Source of the DNA: Jiangella ureilytica
GTDB taxonomy: Bacteria > Actinomycetota > Actinomycetes > Jiangellales > Jiangellaceae
Length of the DNA stretch: 64,000 nt
NCBI RefSeq assembly: GCF_004348545.1
Contig: NZ_SMKL01000027.1
Span: forward strand, 1-64,000
Reading direction: 5' to 3'
In this document: piece by piece, positions 8,718 through 50,400 of the stretch
Position numbering within the stretch: the first letter of the stretch is position 1
Layout: each line of letters starts with the position of its first letter
Program-made: the position numbers and the translations under genes
The notes under the pieces: generated by a model
What the model was told of the DNA's origin: nothing
The model's input: the letters and a program-made list of their open reading frames with translations, nothing else
Database searches by the model: none

Positions 8718-8773
8718 CCATGATCATGTTCCCTCGCGGGCCGCTGACGCGCCGCAACCGAACATGATCATGG
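8718..8773. terminator. Inverted repeat at the end of the debranching-type gene
   Basis: Perfect 13-nt arms (8718-8730 and 8761-8773, core ATGATCAT) are separated by 30 nt, and the right arm covers the last codons and stop of the downstream-reading hydrolase gene. It may terminate that transcript before the SRPBCC gene. A similar TGATCA-containing pair lies at 48961-49202. Confidence 0.5.
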
Positions 8774-20341: not shown

Positions 20342-20913
20342 TGGACGATGGAATCGTGGGCTCTGAGACACTGACCGGCAAGCTGCTCGTCGCGGCGCCG
20401 TCCCTGCGCGGCTCCACCTTCGACCGCGCCGTCGTCCTCATGCTCTCCCACGACGGCGACGGCGCCCTCGGCGTCATGGTCAACAAACCCACGGAAGTAC
20501 TGGTGGGCGACGTCCTGCCGCGCTGGATCTCGGTGGTGTCCGAGCCCGGGGTCGTCTTCCAGGGCGGGCCGGTGAGCCTCGACAGCGCGCTGGGCCTGGT
20601 CGCCGTGGGCGGGAACGACGAGCCGCTCGGGATCCGGCGCGTGCGCGGGCAGCTCGGGGTCGTCGACCTGGACACCCCGGCCGAGATCATCGAGCCCGCC
20701 GTGACGGCGATGCGCGTCTTCGCGGGCTACGCGGGCTGGGCCCCGGACCAGCTGGAGGGCGAGATCGACGAGGGCTCCTGGTTCGTGGTCGACGCGGAGC
20801 CGGGCGACGCCTTCCGTCTGGACGCCCAGGACATGTGGCCGGCGGTGCTGCGGCGGCAAGGTGGGCAGCTGGCCCTGATGGCGACGTTTCCGGCCGACCC
20901 GTCGATGAATTGA
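20341..20913 (+). CDS. YqgE/AlgH family protein (UPF0301)
   Basis: 190 residues, ATG 20341 sharing its first base with the malic enzyme stop. Family hallmarks are GKLLVAAPSLRGSTFDRAVV, LMLSHDGDGALGVMVNKPTE, VFQGGPV, and a late FAGYAGWAPDQLEGEIDEGSWFV split across conserved Gly/Trp positions. The molecular function is unresolved; in some bacteria the homologue affects alginate and other regulation. Co-expression with malic enzyme is likely from the overlap. Confidence 0.93.
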   Translation: MDDGIVGSETLTGKLLVAAPSLRGSTFDRAVVLMLSHDGDGALGVMVNKPTEVLVGDVLPRWISVVSEPGVVFQGGPVSLDSALGLVAVGGNDEPLGIRRVRGQLGVVDLDTPAEIIEPAVTAMRVFAGYAGWAPDQLEGEIDEGSWFVVDAEPGDAFRLDAQDMWPAVLRRQGGQLALMATFPADPSMN

Positions 20914-20925
20914 GGTTCTGCGGTT

Positions 20926-21064
20926 CCCCCCGTCCCCCTGCTGCCCATTCTCTTAGCCCCGAACGGTCGCCTCAAGCGGACCCTGGTGGCGCTTCGCGCC
21001 GTGGGGGTCCGCTTGACCCGCCCGTCCGGGGCCCAAGAACGGGCAGCTATCAGGGGGACGGGGG
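20926..21064. repeat. Hairpin-rich repeat element, copy A
   Basis: A 139-bp element bounded by CCCCGTCCCCCTG and its reverse complement. Within it, outer arms (with TGCCCATTCTCTTA against AAGAACGGGCA) and inner arms (CAAGCGGACCC against GGGTCCGCTTG) pair with each other, giving one long imperfect cruciform. A second copy in opposite orientation lies at 21293-21428. There is no open frame or transposase. Confidence 0.75.
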
Positions 21065-21137
21065 AGTCTGGCGACGGGTGCGGGGTCGGCGGGCCTTGGT
21101 GCGTCCGCGAGGTGGGATTTGGCGCGTTTCGCGGGGC

Positions 21138-21205
21138 CATCACGAGGTTCTCTGCCGCTTCACGAGGCCTGCATGCCTGGTGAAGCGGCAGAACGCCTGG
21201 TGATG
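21138..21205. repeat. CATCACGAGG-type palindromic repeat, short copy
   Basis: 31-nt imperfect arms (21138-21168 and 21175-21205) surround a 6-nt loop. The left arm carries CATCACGAGG, 9 nt, then GCTTCACGAGG. The same two boxes at the same spacing occur in the long element at 34329-34536, so these are two members of one family. It lies between repeat copies A and B; the rest of the 21065-21292 segment shows no gene. Confidence 0.7.
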
Positions 21206-21292
21206 TAGCGGATCGCCGATGATCATCGCGGTGCACAGCCCGTCGAACCGGGACGAAACGGGCGCGCGAACGGCGAGGCGTGCCCAGGGCCT

Positions 21293-21428
21293 CCCCGTCC
21301 CCCTGATAGCTGCCCGTTCTTAGGCCGCGGGTGCACGGGTCAAGCGGACCCCCAGGGCGCGCAGCGCCCACCGGTCCGCTTGAGGCGTGTGCACGCGGCT
21401 AAGAGAATGGGCAGCAAGGGGGACGGGG
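21293..21428. repeat. Hairpin-rich repeat element, copy B (inverted relative to A)
   Basis: 136 bp, closely matching the reverse complement of copy A: both ends, the CTGATAGCTGCCCGTTCTTA arm and the GGTCAAGCGGACCCCCA centre are shared, while a few internal stretches have drifted. A, the 228-bp middle and B fill the space between the convergent yqgE-like and calpain-partner genes. Confidence 0.75.
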
Positions 21429-21461
21429 AGCCCGCCCACCTCACCACCCCGGCCAACTGGC

Positions 21462-31140: not shown

Positions 31141-31184
31141 GCGGGCGGACCACCGGGGTTCTGGGCCGCCGGTGATCCGCCCGC
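31141..31184. terminator. Terminator between aceA and the GH127 gene
   Basis: 16-nt arms (31141-31156 and 31169-31184) with one mismatch and a 12-nt loop lie 13 nt after the aceA stop and just before the end of the convergent gene. It is a likely bidirectional terminator. Confidence 0.7.
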
Positions 31185-31196
31185 GGTCTGTGAGTG

Positions 31197-34124
31197 TCAG
31201 AGCTCGCTCTTCGAACGGGCCGCCGCGATCAGGATGTCCTGCCGCTGCCGCCGGGTGTGCCGGCCTGCGTCGACCCACTCCTGCGACACGGCCTCGACCC
31301 TGCGGACGAGGTCGGCGTGGGTGGCGAACGGCGCCGCCTCCCACACGCGGTCGAGGAACGTCTCGCCCTGCTGGTCGCGGACGGCGTCGTTCGGCACGCC
31401 GGTGCGCTGCGACCGGAACACGATCTCCGGCTCCACCCGCTTGAAGTACGGGTGGTAGGCGTTGAACTCCCCCGGCACCGGGTCGGCGACGTAGTACGGC
31501 GCCAGCAGGTAGCCGTGTGTCGTGAAGTGCATCGACGCGTCGCTGGGCCGGATGGACGCCGCGAGGTCGCCGTTCAGCCCGAGCTGGGAGAAGAACGAGA
31601 ACTGCCGGTAGGTGGTGTTCGCGTCGCGCACGACCATCAGCGTCGGGCCGTACATGATCGACTGCACCGACTTGTCGTTGATCGCCTTGTCGACCCAGAA
31701 GCTCAGCGGCATGGTGATGTCGACGACGTCGCCGGCCTGCCAGACGCGGCTGACGGTGACGTAGGACGTCGGCGTCGCGTCGACCTTCTGGTCCTTGCCG
31801 TTGACGGCGACCGTGTAGCCCTGCTTCGCCCAGCCGGGGACCCGCAGCTTCAGGTCCAGGGGCCCGCTGCCGCTGACGAAGCGCAGCCGGGTCGAGCCGG
31901 CCGCCGGGAACGCCGTCTCCTGCGTGATGACGAAGCCCCGCTCCGGCCAGGTCAGCGTCGCCTGGATGAACAGGTTGAGGTAGAGCGCCGACCCGTCGCC
32001 GGAGCGGAAGAACACCGTCTCCTGGTACTTCGTGTGGCTCTCGACACCGGTGCCGTTGCAGCAGCTGCCGTTGCCGCCGTAGCGGCTGTACTCGACGAAC
32101 GTGCCGATGCGCCGCGACCGGCCCGGCCACATGTTCTGGTGGTACGTGACCTCGGTGTTCGTGACGCTGTCGATGTCGCGGCGCGAGCTCATGATCTGGT
32201 TGTGCAGGGCCTTCTCGTAGAAGTCCATGAACGCCGGCTCGGGCTCGATGAAGAACAGGTTCCGGGTGAGCCGGAGCATGTTGTACGCGCAGCAGGTCTC
32301 GGCGTGCCGCGGGTCGCTGCCCGACGTGAACCCGGACGTGATGTCGCCGCGGGCGCGGAAGTGCTCGCTGCGTCCCGCGCCGCCGTTGCTGAACGTGCGG
32401 TGCGGCACGACCATGCCCCAGAAGTTGCGGGCCGCCGTGTGGTACTGCTCCTCGCCGGTGTGCTCGAAGATGCGCAGGTAGCCGATGTTCGGCGCCATGT
32501 ACTGGTTCGCGTGGCGGCCGTTGAGCTGGTCGACGTCGTTGATGGTGGCGTTGAACAGCGTGCTGAACGTGAACATCTTGGCGGTCTCGAGGAACCGGTC
32601 GCGCTGCGCGGCGTCGCTGGTGTGCGACGCGAGCTCGGCCATGACCTCGTTCATCGACCCGGCCTCGCCGGCGCTGTAGGTGTTCCACATGCTGTCGCGG
32701 CCCTCGGGCGTGAGCGCGCTGAGCCGGCTGTGGACCCATTCGCCCATGCGGAACAGGATCGGCAGCGCGTCCTCGTTGCCGGTGAGGTCGTAGGCGTTGA
32801 GCAGTCCGCGCATGATCTTGTGGTGGGTGTACCAGACCGCCCAGACGGCGTTCGGCCCGCTGTTGGGCTGCACCATCGGCGGTTCGATGCGGATGAACTG
32901 GCCCTCGGGGAACGCCGCGAGGTAGCCGGGGTAGCCGGTGCCGACGATGGTGGCGTCGCGGCCGTGGCCCGACGCGTCCGGCGCGGCCTGGCCCTCGGCG
33001 TCGAAGGTCCAACGGGCCAGCAGGCCGGTGCCGTCGACCCCGCCGGTCGGGTCCGTGGTGGCGGTGGCGAGCGCCTGGACCTCGGCCGCGGACAGTGCCC
33101 GGCCGTGCAGCTGCACCTCGTCGACCGCGGCGTTGAGCAGCGCGTGGTCGTTGCTGGTCGAGCGGCCGATCCAGTTGCTGACCGTGGCGCCGACGGCCGC
33201 GGGCGTGACGGTCATGGCAGGGTTGACGGCGACCTCGGCGCCGTCGACGTAGAGCCGCCCGGTGCCGCCGCCGATGGTGACCGCGACGTGCGACCAGGTG
33301 CCGACCGGCAGCTGCACGGGGGAGTCGATGCGCTGCTCGGCGCCGGACCCGTCGACCGTGATGGCGAACCGGGGGCCGACGGTATCGGAGATGCGCGCCG
33401 TCAGGGCGACGTAGGCCCGCGTGCTGGTCGCGAGGGTGAGGATGCGCGCGTTGGTCTGGTTCGCGACCGGCCGCACCCAGGCGGCGAAGGTGACGTCGGT
33501 GACGCCGGTGTTCAGGCCGGCGGGCAGCGTGACGAACTGGTTCGGATGCGGGTCGCTGAGCTGGACGGCCTGGCCGAACCTGCCGGCGACGCGGCCGAGA
33601 TTGCGCTGGTCCAGGGCGTCCTGGACCTTCGCGAGCTCCGCCACGATGTAGTCGAGCTTCGTCAGGAAGAGCTCCTCGCCGGTGGCCGCCCAGCACTGCG
33701 CGAGCATGGTCATCCAGTGGCCGGAGAAGTGGCCGCGGAGCAGGTGGTTCGGCGTGTCCCAGCCGCCGGGCCAGGTGCCCGGCGCCGGCAGCCCCGCGTT
33801 GCGGCGGAACAGGTGCAGCATGCGGTCAGGCCCGTCGAGCACGTTCCCCGTGCCCGGGTAGTTGCGGGCATAGTTGAGCATCCGGTCGCGCTTGTCCTTG
33901 TAGATGCCATCGCCCAGGGTGACCTGGTTCAGCGCGAACGGCGCGACCTCCCACGTGTCCGACGTCCACCCCGGCCGCGGCGCGCCGCCGATGACGGCGC
34001 CGGCGCCGGTGTCGGCGTGAGCGGCGGGTGCGACCGCGGTGGCGACGGCGGACGCCGCAGCCGGGGCGGCCGCCGCCATCGCGCCCATGCGCAACGCGTC
34101 GCGTCGGGAGAATCTCTTGCTCAT
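31197..34124 (-). CDS. Secreted GH127 glycoside hydrolase (beta-L-arabinofuranosidase-like) with inserted LamG domain
   Basis: 975 residues from ATG 34124 with GAGGAGG ahead. A Tat signal (SRRDALRMGAMAAAAPAA) indicates export of a folded enzyme. The (alpha/alpha)6 core begins near residue 60 (LGDGIYKDKRDRMLNYARNY), is interrupted by a LamG/concanavalin-like beta-sandwich (about 175-370, ILTLATSTRAYVALTARI, GTWSHVAVTIGGGTGRLYVD), then resumes (VWYTHHKIMRGLLNAYDLTG). GH127 residues are present: ETCC and GSCCNGTGVES, carrying the Cys/Glu cluster that in characterised members holds zinc and the nucleophilic Cys. The likely substrate is an arabinofuranosyl polymer of plants. It stands alone, not near the sugar importer. 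Confidence 0.87.
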   Translation of the reverse strand: MSKRFSRRDALRMGAMAAAAPAAASAVATAVAPAAHADTGAGAVIGGAPRPGWTSDTWEVAPFALNQVTLGDGIYKDKRDRMLNYARNYPGTGNVLDGPDRMLHLFRRNAGLPAPGTWPGGWDTPNHLLRGHFSGHWMTMLAQCWAATGEELFLTKLDYIVAELAKVQDALDQRNLGRVAGRFGQAVQLSDPHPNQFVTLPAGLNTGVTDVTFAAWVRPVANQTNARILTLATSTRAYVALTARISDTVGPRFAITVDGSGAEQRIDSPVQLPVGTWSHVAVTIGGGTGRLYVDGAEVAVNPAMTVTPAAVGATVSNWIGRSTSNDHALLNAAVDEVQLHGRALSAAEVQALATATTDPTGGVDGTGLLARWTFDAEGQAAPDASGHGRDATIVGTGYPGYLAAFPEGQFIRIEPPMVQPNSGPNAVWAVWYTHHKIMRGLLNAYDLTGNEDALPILFRMGEWVHSRLSALTPEGRDSMWNTYSAGEAGSMNEVMAELASHTSDAAQRDRFLETAKMFTFSTLFNATINDVDQLNGRHANQYMAPNIGYLRIFEHTGEEQYHTAARNFWGMVVPHRTFSNGGAGRSEHFRARGDITSGFTSGSDPRHAETCCAYNMLRLTRNLFFIEPEPAFMDFYEKALHNQIMSSRRDIDSVTNTEVTYHQNMWPGRSRRIGTFVEYSRYGGNGSCCNGTGVESHTKYQETVFFRSGDGSALYLNLFIQATLTWPERGFVITQETAFPAAGSTRLRFVSGSGPLDLKLRVPGWAKQGYTVAVNGKDQKVDATPTSYVTVSRVWQAGDVVDITMPLSFWVDKAINDKSVQSIMYGPTLMVVRDANTTYRQFSFFSQLGLNGDLAASIRPSDASMHFTTHGYLLAPYYVADPVPGEFNAYHPYFKRVEPEIVFRSQRTGVPNDAVRDQQGETFLDRVWEAAPFATHADLVRRVEAVSQEWVDAGRHTRRQRQDILIAAARSKSEL

Positions 34125-34328
34125 CTCGCCCTCCTCGTTCCGGCCCTCGTTGGCCGCGCAGTGGTGCAAATGTGAGCGTTAACAGAAGTGCTCCGGGATC
34201 CGCTCTTGAGCGGAATGTGACCGGTAACAGGTGAAATATCGCATCCGCGCCGGGGGCGGGTCAAGGGTGATCCGTCGACCGCGTCAGCCTGCGGTCGCGC
34301 CGTGCTCGCTTACCGGCCCACCACCGGA

Positions 34329-34536
34329 ATGACCACGTTCACCACCCGATCCGGTGCCACACGAGGCCTTCGGACCTCGTGACGCACCTGAGCGCCTCGT
34401 GATGTGACGCGCACGCGGCCCGGCAATCGCTTTCCCGGATGTTCGCGGCGCTGGCGGCGACATCACGAGGGTCACCCGCGCTTCACGAGGTCCGCAGGCC
34501 TCGTGTGGCAGGGATTCGGGTGGTGAACGTGATCAT
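34329..34536. repeat. Long-armed palindromic repeat (CATCACGAGG family)
   Basis: A 208-bp inverted repeat with 77-nt arms (34329-34405 and 34460-34536) and a 54-nt centre. Arms begin with ATGACCACGTTCACCACCC and ATGATCACGTTCACCACCC (the latter on the opposite strand) and contain repeated CACGAGG boxes. It fills most of the 424-bp gap between the GH127 start and dhaM. The remaining 34125-34328 holds only the GH127 promoter region, and I see no gene there. It has no coding capacity. Confidence 0.8.
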
Positions 34537-34548
34537 CGGGAGGGCGGG

Positions 34549-34947
34549 TCAGAGCTTGCGCATCGACCAGGCGTGTTCGGCGGAGGCGACGACGGCGTCG
34601 AGGTCCTGTCCCGTCGACGCCAGCACGGCGGCGGCCACGGCGCCCTCGGCGAACGGGGCGTCGGCGAGGCGCACGACCGGCGCGTCGGCCTCGTCCTCGA
34701 GGTCCTCGACCAGGGTCTTCGACGTCAGGACGGAACTTCCCATGTCCATGATCACGCAGACGCCGTCGCCGCTGTCGGCGGAGCGGACGGCGGCGGAGAT
34801 CAGCTCGATGCTGGTGCCGAACCGGCCGTCGTCGGTGCCGCCGGCGGCCCGGATGGCGACCGACGGACCGGCGAGCTCCGCCGCCAGATCGGCGACGGAG
34901 CCCGCGACCGCCGGGCTGTGCGAGACCAGCACGATGCCCACCGTCAC
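34549..34947 (-). CDS. dhaM: DhaM, EIIA-like phosphocarrier of PTS-dependent dihydroxyacetone kinase
   Basis: 132 residues. It is an EIIA-Man-fold domain with the phosphorylated His in VSHSPAVAG (about residue 10) and AGGTDDGRFGTS and MDMGSSVLTSKTL typical of DhaM. No HPr or EI domain is fused, so phosphate must come from general PTS proteins encoded elsewhere. Its ATG overlaps the dhaL stop by 4 nt. It donates phosphate to DhaL-bound ADP. Confidence 0.92.
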   Translation of the reverse strand: MTVGIVLVSHSPAVAGSVADLAAELAGPSVAIRAAGGTDDGRFGTSIELISAAVRSADSGDGVCVIMDMGSSVLTSKTLVEDLEDEADAPVVRLADAPFAEGAVAAAVLASTGQDLDAVVASAEHAWSMRKL

Positions 34948-35573
34948 GCCGTGACCTCCGCGAGCGCCCGCAGGATCAGCGCCAGCGACGCCGCACCCGG
35001 GTCCTCGTGGCCCACGCTGCGCGCGCCGAGGTAGCTGGCCCGGCCCTTGCGCGCCTGCAGCGGGACCGTCGCGGCGAGCCCGGCCTCGGCGGCGTCGGCG
35101 GCCGCGACGGACGCCGACGCGAGATCGCCGCCGTCGGCGACCGCCTGCCGGAACGCCGCCACCGCCGGAGCGAGGCCGTCGACCATGGTCTTGTCGCCCT
35201 CGGCGGCGCCGCCCAGCTCCTTGATCGCCGTCAGGGCGGCCTCGAGCGCGTCGCCGACCTGCTCCGCCGTCGCCTCGGTGGCGTCGCCGAGCGCCTTGCC
35301 GGCCCGGCGGAACGCGGTGCCGTAGAGCGGCCCGGACGCGCCGCCGGTCTTGGCGACGATGCCGCGGCCGGCCGCGACCAGCACGTCACCGGGCGTGGCG
35401 GGCTCCTTCTCGGCGATGTTGGCCAGGGCGGCGGCGAGACCGCGGGCCATGTTGGCCCCGTGGTCGCCGTCGCCGATCGCGGCGTCGAGGCCGGTCAGCC
35501 GTGCCTCGTTCGCCTTGACGACGGCCTCGGACGCGGTGATCCACGCCGTCGCCGTCTGGACGTCGAACGCCAT
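34944..35573 (-). CDS. dhaL: DhaL, ADP-binding subunit of dihydroxyacetone kinase
   Basis: 209 residues from ATG 35573; a GTG at 35579 overlapping the dhaK stop is the alternative. The Mg-nucleotide loop IGDGDHGANMARG (Asp cluster) and the GAASGPLYGTAF-like segment (here GGASGPLYGTAFRRAG) mark the DhaL fold. It holds ADP/ATP and passes phosphate from DhaM to dihydroxyacetone bound by DhaK. It is the middle gene of dhaK-dhaL-dhaM. Confidence 0.94.
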   Translation of the reverse strand: MAFDVQTATAWITASEAVVKANEARLTGLDAAIGDGDHGANMARGLAAALANIAEKEPATPGDVLVAAGRGIVAKTGGASGPLYGTAFRRAGKALGDATEATAEQVGDALEAALTAIKELGGAAEGDKTMVDGLAPAVAAFRQAVADGGDLASASVAAADAAEAGLAATVPLQARKGRASYLGARSVGHEDPGAASLALILRALAEVTA

Positions 35574-35575
35574 GG

Positions 35576-36568
35576 TCACCGTCCCCACCGCAGCGCGGGC
35601 GTCGACACCGGGGCGTCCCACAGCCGCAGCAACTCGTCGTCCAGCGACATGACGGTGATCGAGAAGCCCTGCTGGTCGAGGCTGGTGATGTAGTTGCCGA
35701 CCAGGCTGCGCGCGACGGTGCCGCCGTGGCCCTCGATCCAGGCGACGGCCTCGGCGAAGGCGCCGTACAGTTCGATCAGCGGGGTGCCGCCCTGGCCGTT
35801 CAGCATGACCAGCTGGTCGCCGGCGATGGGGCGGTCGGCGTGGATGACGTCGAGGGCGTAGCCGACGAGGTCGTGCACCGGCTGCATGGTGCCGCGCTCG
35901 CGGCCCGGCTCGCCGTGGATGCCGACGCCCAGCTCGACCTCGTTCTCGGCGAGGTCGAAGCCCGGCTTGCCGGCCGCCGGGACGGTGCCGGCGTGCAGCG
36001 CGATGGCGAACGAGCGGGTGGCCTCGTTGACGCGGGTGGCGAGGGCGGCGACGGTGTCGAGGTCGGCACCCTCCTCGGCGGCCGCGCCGGCGAGCTTCTC
36101 GACGAAGACCGTGCCGCCGACGCCGCGGCGCCCAGCGGTGTAGGTGGAGTCCTCGACGGCGGCGTCGTCGTTGGTGACCACGCTGACGACGCGGATGTCC
36201 TCGTCCTCGGCCAGCTCGGCCGCCATGCGGAAGTTGAGCACGTCGCCGGTGTAGTTCTTCACGATGTGCAGCACCCCCGACCCGTGGTCGGCGGCCTTGG
36301 TGGCGGCCAGGATCTGGTCCGGCACCGGTGACGTGTAGACCTCGCCAGGCGCGGCGGCGTCGAGCATGCCGTAGCCGACGTAGCCGCCGTGCAGCGGCTC
36401 GTGGCCGGAGCCACCTCCCGAGACCAGTCCCACCTTGCCCGCCATGACGCCGCCGGCTCGCGAGACGACCCGGTTCTCGAGGTCGACGGCGAGCGACGGG
36501 TGGGCGGCGGCCATGCCGCGCAGAGCGTCGGCGATGACCGAGTCGGGGGAGTTGATCAGCTTCTTCAT
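35576..36568 (-). CDS. dhaK: DhaK, dihydroxyacetone-binding subunit
   Basis: 330 residues from ATG 36568 (MKKLINSPDSVI). It has SGGGSGHEPLHGGYVGYGML, IVKNYTGDVLNFRMAAE and GVGIHGEPGRERG; the His residues in these motifs bind and covalently hold dihydroxyacetone in characterised homologues. It is the first gene of the kinase operon and phosphorylates dihydroxyacetone to the triose phosphate in the cytoplasm. An upstream frame to 36649 lacks typical DhaK sequence. An IclR regulator gene diverges. Confidence 0.95.
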   Translation of the reverse strand: MKKLINSPDSVIADALRGMAAAHPSLAVDLENRVVSRAGGVMAGKVGLVSGGGSGHEPLHGGYVGYGMLDAAAPGEVYTSPVPDQILAATKAADHGSGVLHIVKNYTGDVLNFRMAAELAEDEDIRVVSVVTNDDAAVEDSTYTAGRRGVGGTVFVEKLAGAAAEEGADLDTVAALATRVNEATRSFAIALHAGTVPAAGKPGFDLAENEVELGVGIHGEPGRERGTMQPVHDLVGYALDVIHADRPIAGDQLVMLNGQGGTPLIELYGAFAEAVAWIEGHGGTVARSLVGNYITSLDQQGFSITVMSLDDELLRLWDAPVSTPALRWGR

Positions 36569-48960: not shown

Positions 48961-49198
48961 TTGATCATCAAAGAAGCGGGTCGTGATGACGCGCAGGTCT
49001 CGGCGTCCTGTGGGTGCGGTGTCCTCGACGCGCGTGCGCGGCGGGGTCTCGGCCGGGGGCCGGGTGAGCGGCAGGCGGTGCGCGTAGTGGACCCGAACAC
49101 CGTCGATCTTGCCGACGTCGTGGTCGGCTACGACGGTGACGTGGATGACCAGGATCAGCCGAGTAACGGGTCGCCAGGGCAACCCGATGCTTTGGTGA

Positions 49199-49202
<4 letters not shown>
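48961..49202. repeat. Distant inverted repeat in the convergent CDF-fahA gap
   Basis: TTGATCATCAAAG (48961-48973) is nearly the reverse complement of 49190-49202 (11 of 13), and the right arm covers the fahA stop. The 216 bp between contain a minus-strand open frame (for example VTRLILVIHVTVVADHDVGK) with normal actinobacterial codon bias but no start site or family that I recognise. It may be a gene fragment or repeat-borne sequence; otherwise I see nothing here. Confidence 0.45.

Positions 49203-50400
<1,198 letters not shown>

Follow-up and report, generated by a model that had tools for sequence, protein, structure and literature searches.

Palindromic repeats and their gene-bearing relatives

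MITEs lack a gene and share their ends with an element that has one, and TRIT, the repeated terminators of Mycobacterium tuberculosis, are sequence-conserved hairpins repeated behind stop codons. REPtrons show a gene between inverted palindromes, with dispersed gene-less palindromes at 3' ends (PMC3733652, PMC8266576), and REPs serve as IS landing sites (PMC11208160, PMC8450116); the IS110-family element IS621 inserts into REPs and has a bridge-RNA target guide (PMC11208160). The AbiEi antitoxin binds inverted repeats beside its own gene and needs its winged helix for repression (PMC3985639). In the open-access literature, we found no title or abstract on palindromes flanking DUF559 or AbiEi genes, and no paper joining DUF559, inverted repeat and transposition. 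Here we describe a 208-bp repeat of the soil actinobacterium Jiangella ureilytica, probably a relative, without a gene, of a REPtron-like unit whose AbiEi/DUF559-type protein is unrelated to RAYT.

The palindrome behind the DhaM-type gene

The window, a stretch of 64,000 nucleotides, contains a 208-bp palindrome with arms at 34329-34405 and 34460-34536 (77 nt, 83% complementary, 54 nt between them; inverted-repeat search), much as a sequence-only reading of this DNA had described it. The minus-strand RNA of 34310-34560 shows a folding energy of -170.7 kcal/mol (z -11.9), which none of 200 shuffles equals. CACGAGG is found 29 times in the window against 20.4 expected, a mild enrichment, and six of the 29 are inside the 208-bp element. 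The DhaM-type gene has its stop codon 12 nt from the arm end at 34536. The parts of the element, which belongs to the repeat family here called family A, and its neighbouring genes are:

31197-34169, minus strand: next downstream gene, with GH127 beta-L-arabinofuranosidase domains and Laminin_G_3 (Pfam)
34326-34359, no strand: left foot of this family A copy, GGAATGACCACGTTCACCACCCGATCCGGTGCCA; the foot pattern has 42 genome matches, control 0
34360-34381, no strand: left inner hairpin, CACGAGG-CCTTCGGA-CCTCGTG, placed 29 nt inward of the GATC foot
34395-34404, no strand: left second box CCTCGTGATG, mirror of CATCACGAGG
34405-34460, no strand: variable centre; the same position holds an AbiEi-like gene in the relative on contig C55
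34422-34434, inside the variable centre: centre motif GGCAATCGCTTTC, which we take to resemble a LacI-family operator
34461-34470, no strand: right second box CATCACGAGG
34484-34505, no strand: right inner hairpin, CACGAGG-TCCGCAGG-CCTCGTG
34506-34540, no strand: right foot, ending in GGTGGTGAACGTGATCATCGGG, 8 nt to the stop codon of the DhaM-type gene
34549-34947, minus strand: DhaM-type gene with EIIA-man domain, in front of the palindrome (Pfam)
34944-35588 and 35576-36568, minus strand: Dak2 and Dak1, adjoining the DhaM-type gene (Pfam)

By eye, neither strand shows a T-run after the window hairpin, and the hairpin foot, GGAATGATCACGTTCA, has no GTAG or CGTC tag. Rfam gives no match in the window at gathering score.

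Family A in the genome

The sequence-only reading had proposed a genome-wide search with the two-box pattern. In the genome of the strain itself (G000, 6.35 Mb; the 12 genus genomes are G000 to G011, and C-numbers denote contigs or loci) the pattern ATCACGAGG-N5..14-CTTCACGAGG has 16 matches, and the reversed control has none. A BLAST search with the window copy, in which 40 of 170 candidates were scored, gives at least 86 HSPs (E up to 1); sorted manually, they make up at least 31 family A places and at least eight places of the kind found at 21138. The terminal sequence AATGATCACGTTCACCACCCG, with up to three mismatches, adds seven family A places (42 genome matches, control 0), and both searches together give at least 38 places; these hand-grouped counts are lower bounds, and the assembly breaks at these repeats. 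Further copies of the family are numerous and do not lie in coding regions only, so that neither outcome named as refuting the earlier reading was observed.

A full-length copy runs from the foot GGAATGATCACGTTCA to the foot TGAACGTGATCATTCC, and its second half mirrors the first: from the foot inward, a CACGAGG-N8-CCTCGTG hairpin at 29 nt, the second box and the variable centre. Among 30 full-length copies of three species, the inner hairpin is at the exact 29-nt offset in 25 on the left and 24 on the right, and 14 contain a GGCAANCGCTTTC-like sequence in the centre, often about 90 nt from one end. The foot-to-foot lengths in the own genome are 80, 151, 155, 161, 182-194, 204, 288 and 327 nt, with one copy of 1239 nt, and the 80-nt forms show one hairpin only. 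Within copies the outer arms covary weakly (0.719, compared with 0.683, sd 0.020), and we do not accept this as proof of structure. At the variable position of the inner hairpin, 30 of 49 pairs are Watson-Crick pairs, with 21.4 expected, which is suggestive only. Fourteen copies of the own genome show no target-site duplication overall (mean 3.43, null 3.44), one of the 14 having an 8-nt direct repeat, and no clean empty site for a family A copy was found.

Family B and the shared box module

The second hairpin, at 21138-21205, is also real: its 34-nt arms, 21138-21171 and 21172-21205, are 82% complementary, and the RNA of 21130-21215 shows a folding energy of -55.2 (z -7.4). It belongs to a composite repeat of its own:

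20920-21435, no strand: family B composite repeat, 516 bp, in a gap between convergent genes, 6 nt past the stop at 20913
20920-20982 and 21373-21435: outer arms of family B
20988-21063 and 21293-21368: inner arms of family B
21138-21205, no strand: core hairpin of family B, with the shared CATCACGAGG and TTCACGAGG boxes

Family B has about 20 nearly full places and 104 HSPs in the genome, and many of its copies are at contig ends. The two window sites do share boxes, as had been noticed, and the CATCACGAGG...TTCACGAGG module is common to families A and B. The idea that both sites belong to one family, with 21138-21205 as a short-armed copy of the 208-bp element, was rejected, because BLAST separates two families with a common module and the short hairpin is the core of the 516-bp repeat. 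What stands of the proposed interspersed family is a set of mostly intergenic palindromes of differing length (80-327 nt), of which the hairpin at 21138 is not a member.

Position relative to genes

Family A copies are found at gene 3' ends, just behind stop codons and often between convergent genes, which answers the question of where the copies lie relative to gene ends. With neighbours taken from our own simple gene caller, which missed at least one frame, both neighbours are called at 24 of the 38 places: 13 are convergent, nine tandem and two divergent. The remaining 14 places are at contig edges, and 13 of them face the 3' end of the single visible gene. A less biased sample consists of the TGATC-footed palindromes of two other species, G001 (0.8 Mb) and G003 (0.4 Mb), with a direct-repeat control of 0: of these 23, 16 are convergent, seven tandem, none divergent and none inside called genes, with a median distance to the stop codon of 18 and 7.5 nt. 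The same stretches contain 494 gaps of 60 nt or more, 78 of them convergent and 159 divergent, and the convergent excess has a p of about 1e-8. A GC-rich hairpin directly behind a stop codon is a trait that these palindromes share with intrinsic terminators, and effects on transcripts, one of the functions offered earlier, would be compatible with this position.

The window contains two other sites with inverted repeats. A GATC-footed palindrome, CCATGATCATGTTC..GAACATGATCATGG, is at 8718-8773 (no strand), at a 3' gene end (8768). The hairpin at 31141-31184, in the convergent gap before the GH127 gene, has near-identical arms in G001, G004, G007 and G009 and is an ordinary conserved terminator-like site.

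The gene-bearing form and its protein

One copy, C55:21033-22275 (1239 nt), shows family A halves enclosing a gene of 320 codons, and the halves of the window copy are 85-88% identical to these halves. The C55 protein matches AbiEi_4 (Pfam, 1e-11), and a protein search found eight further relatives of it in the own genome. AbiEi_4 is above the cut-off in the proteins of C55, C34 and C78, of locus L403 of G009, and of the g35 loci of G001 and G003; C154 has an AbiEi_1 match, the AbiEi match of C84 is below the cut-off, and C33, C76 and C113 have no AbiEi-type Pfam match. As for the nuclease-type domains, DUF559 is above the Pfam cut-off only in C33 and C76 and MTES_1575 in C33, and matches to one or the other are below the cut-off in C84, C154, the g35 protein of G003 and three Arthrobacter proteins. 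C55, including its C-terminal half, C34, C78, L403 and C113 show no DUF559 or MTES_1575 match. By eye, the D and E-x-D motif positions are kept in the aligned proteins. Both domains are of the Vsr-like PD-(D/E)XK nuclease type, and MTES_1575 is placed in the Vsr-like class (PMC3710099). Since dN/dS is 0.15-0.21 in four ortholog pairs, the gene is maintained. The boxes had earlier been considered as protein-binding sites; the AbiEi-type winged helix of the associated protein makes box-binding by this protein plausible.

Palindrome pairs around these genes and around control genes

Each gene was scored by the best inverted repeat between its two flanks, and genes with 24 or more were counted as flanked. 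Members of the gene family are flanked at 10 of 14 independent loci, and only one of 1099 called control genes is (p about 1e-20, Fisher, calculated with 1/1100 controls; the right count is 1/1099, as the 683 scored G001 genes include one member). A stricter count is eight of 12, leaving out C55, the discovery case, and g35, which was met through its palindromes; the other twelve loci came from similarity to the gene at the protein or DNA level, independently of what flanks them. The scores are:

Flanked, Jiangella: C55 57.0, C33 39.5, C76 50.5, C34 36.5, C84 31.5, L403 of G009 51.5, g35 locus of G001 50.0
Flanked, Arthrobacter: 24.0, 28.5, 36.0
Unflanked: C78 12.5, C113 8.5, C125 11.5, Nonomuraea 11.0 or 10.0

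The unflanked C78, C113 and C125 are one protein subgroup. The 14 loci leave out C154 (contig edge, one side), the g35 copies of G009 (11.5, IS-broken) and G004 (42.5 and 19.0, gene fragments), and the orthologs: the C55 type in G001, G002, G003, G006, G007 and G008, C76 in G001, g35 in G003 and C78 in G001. The controls are 682 genes of G001, 323 of G003 and 94 of the Arthrobacter stretches; the 800-kb stretch of G001 contains one member of the gene family and the 400-kb stretch of G003 none, hence their use. This single member (1094504), 76% identical to C78, is unflanked (9.0). Flanks were 320-330 nt for members and 260 nt for controls, and two members scored both ways are equal (28.5 and 24.0). 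For one Arthrobacter member the automatic caller had mis-set the ends (rank 8 of 21), and the ORF ends give 36.0.

The sole control of 24 or more is a transposase-like remnant, ISL3-like by eye, at G003:C1:1128979-1129263 (L454), which lies between A-like half palindromes with their tips inward. A 340-codon frame of G001 (C1:1404774-1405865, L428), without Pfam or PADLOC match, is between two nearly identical palindromes and is possibly another cargo; since it scores 43.0 and the gene caller missed it, the control undercounts. Because pairs also enclose this frame and the G003 remnant, a palindrome pair is no proof of a mobiliser.

Arthrobacter and other plasmids

The arrangement recurs in another actinobacterial order. 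A tblastn search with the C76 protein found four records of the plasmid collection, three of Arthrobacter (29-39% identical) and one of Nonomuraea. All three Arthrobacter genes are between inverted palindromes whose sequences are unlike those of Jiangella, and the Nonomuraea gene is unflanked. The latter record, NZ_LT559118.1 of Nonomuraea gerenzanensis, is labelled plasmid in PLSDB, and its size of 11.85 Mb suggests a chromosome. The Arthrobacter dispersal search counts both strands of a palindrome, so that distinct copies are at least half of the places: in the two StoSoilB13 plasmids, the first family has 27 and 21 places (at least 14 and 11 copies) and the second six and four (at least three and two copies). 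Six 49-kb StoSoilB13 stretches contain eight distinct places of the first family, two of them at the gene, and three of the second, one at its gene. Arthrobacter ERGS1:01 has six places, and the two 49-kb stretches read hold only the pair at the gene. The C34-type protein has no plasmid match, and none of 13 viral-contig pattern matches is a relative.

Matching of protein and palindrome, and turnover between species

Proteins and palindromes go together by type. The C55 type, present in eight genomes with 55-85% identity and at another locus in G009, has feet like GAAATGATCACGTTCA. C33 and C76, 80% identical and at two loci, have the palindrome GTTGATCATGGAGAA, and C154, with 40-42% identity to them, shows GTTGATCTTGGAGTAA on its one visible side. 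The C34 and g35 loci have CCCATGATCATC followed by differing stems, the C84 palindrome is unrelated to the others, and the C78/C113/C125 subgroup is without palindrome. By eye, the two palindromes of one species, left and right, are more alike than either is to those of most other species, both at the C55 and at the g35 locus.

The C55 locus contains the gene with its ends in G000, G001, G002, G003, G006 and G008, and in G007 it is near a contig end. In G004, G009, G010 and G011 this locus has another frame, acetyltransferase-like by eye, and in G005 its two flanks fall on separate contigs and no gene match is present. G001 and G003 have the gene in inverted orientation; gene and ends are found together at different loci and in either orientation. 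The g35 locus shows open genes between two different palindrome families in G001 and G003, and fragments in G004. The window itself contains a lost cassette, at 48961-49206:

48961-48980, no strand: decayed half palindrome TTGATCATCAAAGAAGCGGG; congeners have an AbiEi-like gene between palindromes here
49183-49206, no strand: right-hand half palindrome of this lost cassette, also decayed

Family A matches are found in 14 of the 40 genomes searched, the own genome included, and the relatives with the largest numbers are G001, G014, G002, G018 and G006; G014, G016 and G018, relatives at the family level, all have many. The single matches of G003 and G009 are borderline (E about 6e-4 and 8e-4). 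Within the genus, none is found in G004, G005, G010 and G011. The C55-type gene is present in all eight genus genomes with family A matches, counting the G009 paralog, and in none of these four; the p of 0.002 for this 12-genome profile is optimistic, as the genomes are related and relatedness is ignored.

Behind the orthologous dhaM of ten congeners (by eye), G001, G004, G005, G009 and G011 show palindromes of other sequence, G003, G006 and G010 show GATC-footed palindromic sequence of further kinds, G007 has no palindrome and G008 none obvious. A comparison of 18 G001 loci with the own genome matched six family A places, with flanks 88-95% identical (one on one side only), and a seventh, C20, on one side and at a distance. 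Five of the six contain diverged family A copies in both species, and the sixth has an 80-nt copy in G000 and a 204-nt copy in G001. Since these places are common to both species, many copies are old, and their content is changing. A pattern scan over named organisms gave 74 stretches across bacteria and archaea, mostly chance by our reading, of which three were compared: locus L112 of Jiangella endophytica contains both window repeats, and two loci of Actinopolymorpha alba contain neither.

An IS110-family element in the palindromes

All nine ends found of an IS110-family element in the own genome (contigs C20, C21, C34, C43, C90, C109, C126, C132 and C167) are exactly in the family A foot, at GTGAACGTG(A/G)T|C, and the opposite IS ends, six of nine inspected, continue with CATT, like the other half of the foot. 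The domains were read on its G001 relative, which shows DEDD_Tnp_IS110 (4e-24) and Transposase_20 (2e-21). This element uses family A palindromes as landing sites. Its relatives are in other palindromes: CCATGATC in G001 and G004, CCAAGATC in G002 and GGTTGATGATC in G010; at one site each of G007 and G010 a palindrome is not clearly recognisable. The IS of G000 contains CCAACGTGATCTG about 70 nt inward of its end, and those of G001 and G004 contain CATCCATGATCTG there; each matches its respective target, as a bridge-RNA target guide would. For the G002 copies, and for those G010 copies whose end is like the rest, the guide lies past the contig ends. Species-specific palindromes with matching target-guide-like sequences offer a natural series for guide evolution.

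Possible mechanism and alternative explanations

Three functions had been offered for the repeat (transcript stabilisation, nucleoid binding and mobility), and mobility is the best supported, by the shared termini, the gene-bearing form, the differing loci and the lineage-specific copy number. The association of these genes with palindromes is observed; in the sequence of events that we infer from it, the winged helix would bind the boxes and feet that recur in its own family of palindromes, the nuclease part would cut at the bound palindrome, and through repair or strand transfer a copy would arrive at a new place or replace an older palindrome. Just behind stop codons, copies would be kept since they do little harm there and perhaps provide two-way transcription ends. 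The concerted change of palindromes within species fits cutting and copying, and fits ordinary gene conversion too.

A REPtron-like unit with its own AbiEi/DUF559-type protein remains the reading that we favour, ahead of four alternatives. The palindromes could be selected two-way terminators or 3'-end stabilisers, alike by gene conversion, with the AbiEi-like genes merely between them. The bias to convergent and tandem gaps (13/9/2 for family A, 16/7/0 for the TGATC-footed sample) and the different palindromes of several species behind the same gene agree with this, which we nevertheless consider unlikely: it leaves unpredicted the pairing of like palindromes around the genes of a single protein family and almost no others, the agreement between protein and palindrome types, the occurrence of the cassette at several loci and the lack of the family in species without the gene. 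The window hairpin also lacks the T-run of a terminator, and REPs elsewhere, proposed to be mobile, show the same 3'-end pattern (PMC3733652). That source also gives the REP/RAYT layout, a gene between inverted palindromes with dispersed 3'-end copies, so palindromes moved by a Y1 HUH transposase would look much like these; this alternative was rejected and is given next to no weight, as a search for Y1_Tnp (PF01797) found none in 12 of 12 genus genomes (control positive in five of 14) and, by eye, no GTAG tag is at the feet.

Two further explanations concern the gene between the palindromes. It could be mere cargo of a classical MITE system, in which a DDE transposase unrelated to the AbiEi-like gene acts on the ends in trans. 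The element does have terminal inverted repeats, falls into length classes and has many copies without a gene beside one with a gene, and an unrelated frame is also found between palindromes; even so this appears improbable, because there is no target-site duplication overall, whole hairpins are part of the ends, palindromes of several sequence families go with the one protein family, also in another order, and among the copies read none has a transposase gene with these ends. We know of no DDE transposase for family A. Slightly more improbable still is that the palindromes are operators of AbiEi-like regulators and the dispersed copies their regulon sites. The binding of AbiEi to inverted repeats beside its gene, the need of its winged helix for repression and the recurrence of the boxes at fixed spacing speak for operators, and the palindromes on both sides of the gene, with the other copies behind genes and not at promoters, speak against them.

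The preferred REPtron-like reading suggests a little-known way of bacterial repeat spread. We put forward, tentatively and with somewhat less confidence than we have in the relationship of the 208-bp repeat to a gene-bearing unit, that proteins with an AbiEi winged helix and a Vsr-like nuclease may be a class of mobilisers apart from the HUH, DDE, serine and tyrosine recombinases, and that each lineage may own, spread and overwrite a palindrome family of its own. If so, many orphan actinobacterial AbiEi/DUF559 genes would be palindrome-spreading elements, REPtron-like or homing-like, and not antitoxins. A nuclease-type protein with its own palindromes in two actinobacterial orders would be a candidate mobiliser for RAYT-less repeats; such a link would explain what a little-understood family of genes does, and it predicts a cognate gene for each palindrome family.

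Comparison with known systems

The entry of the IS110-family element resembles that of IS621/IS110 elements into REPs, with insertion at palindrome tips and a copy of part of the target in the non-coding end of the IS, and differs in the target families; this comparison concerns the IS, not the palindrome itself. With the AbiE type IV toxin-antitoxin systems the unit has in common the AbiEi-type winged helix, a domain whose AbiEi representative binds inverted repeats beside its gene (PMC3985639). It differs from them in the DUF559/MTES_1575 nuclease-type domain of some members, in neighbours that vary by locus and among which no AbiEii partner was noticed, and in palindromes that are on both sides of the gene and dispersed.

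Among the repeats, family A is like the MITEs in terminal inverted repeats common to a gene-bearing element, and unlike them in having hairpin ends and no target-site duplication overall. It is like TRIT in being a set of sequence-conserved hairpins repeated behind stop codons, and differs in its gene-flanking cassettes, termination at family A being putative. The closest likeness of layout is to REPs and REPtrons: a gene with inverted palindromes, many extragenic copies and a bias to the 3' ends of convergent and tandem genes. Family A differs from them in having an AbiEi/DUF559-type protein, with no Y1 HUH transposase found in the 12 genus genomes and no GTAG tag seen, and in its architecture, since its palindrome is split around the gene, whereas a REPtron shows whole palindromes on each side.
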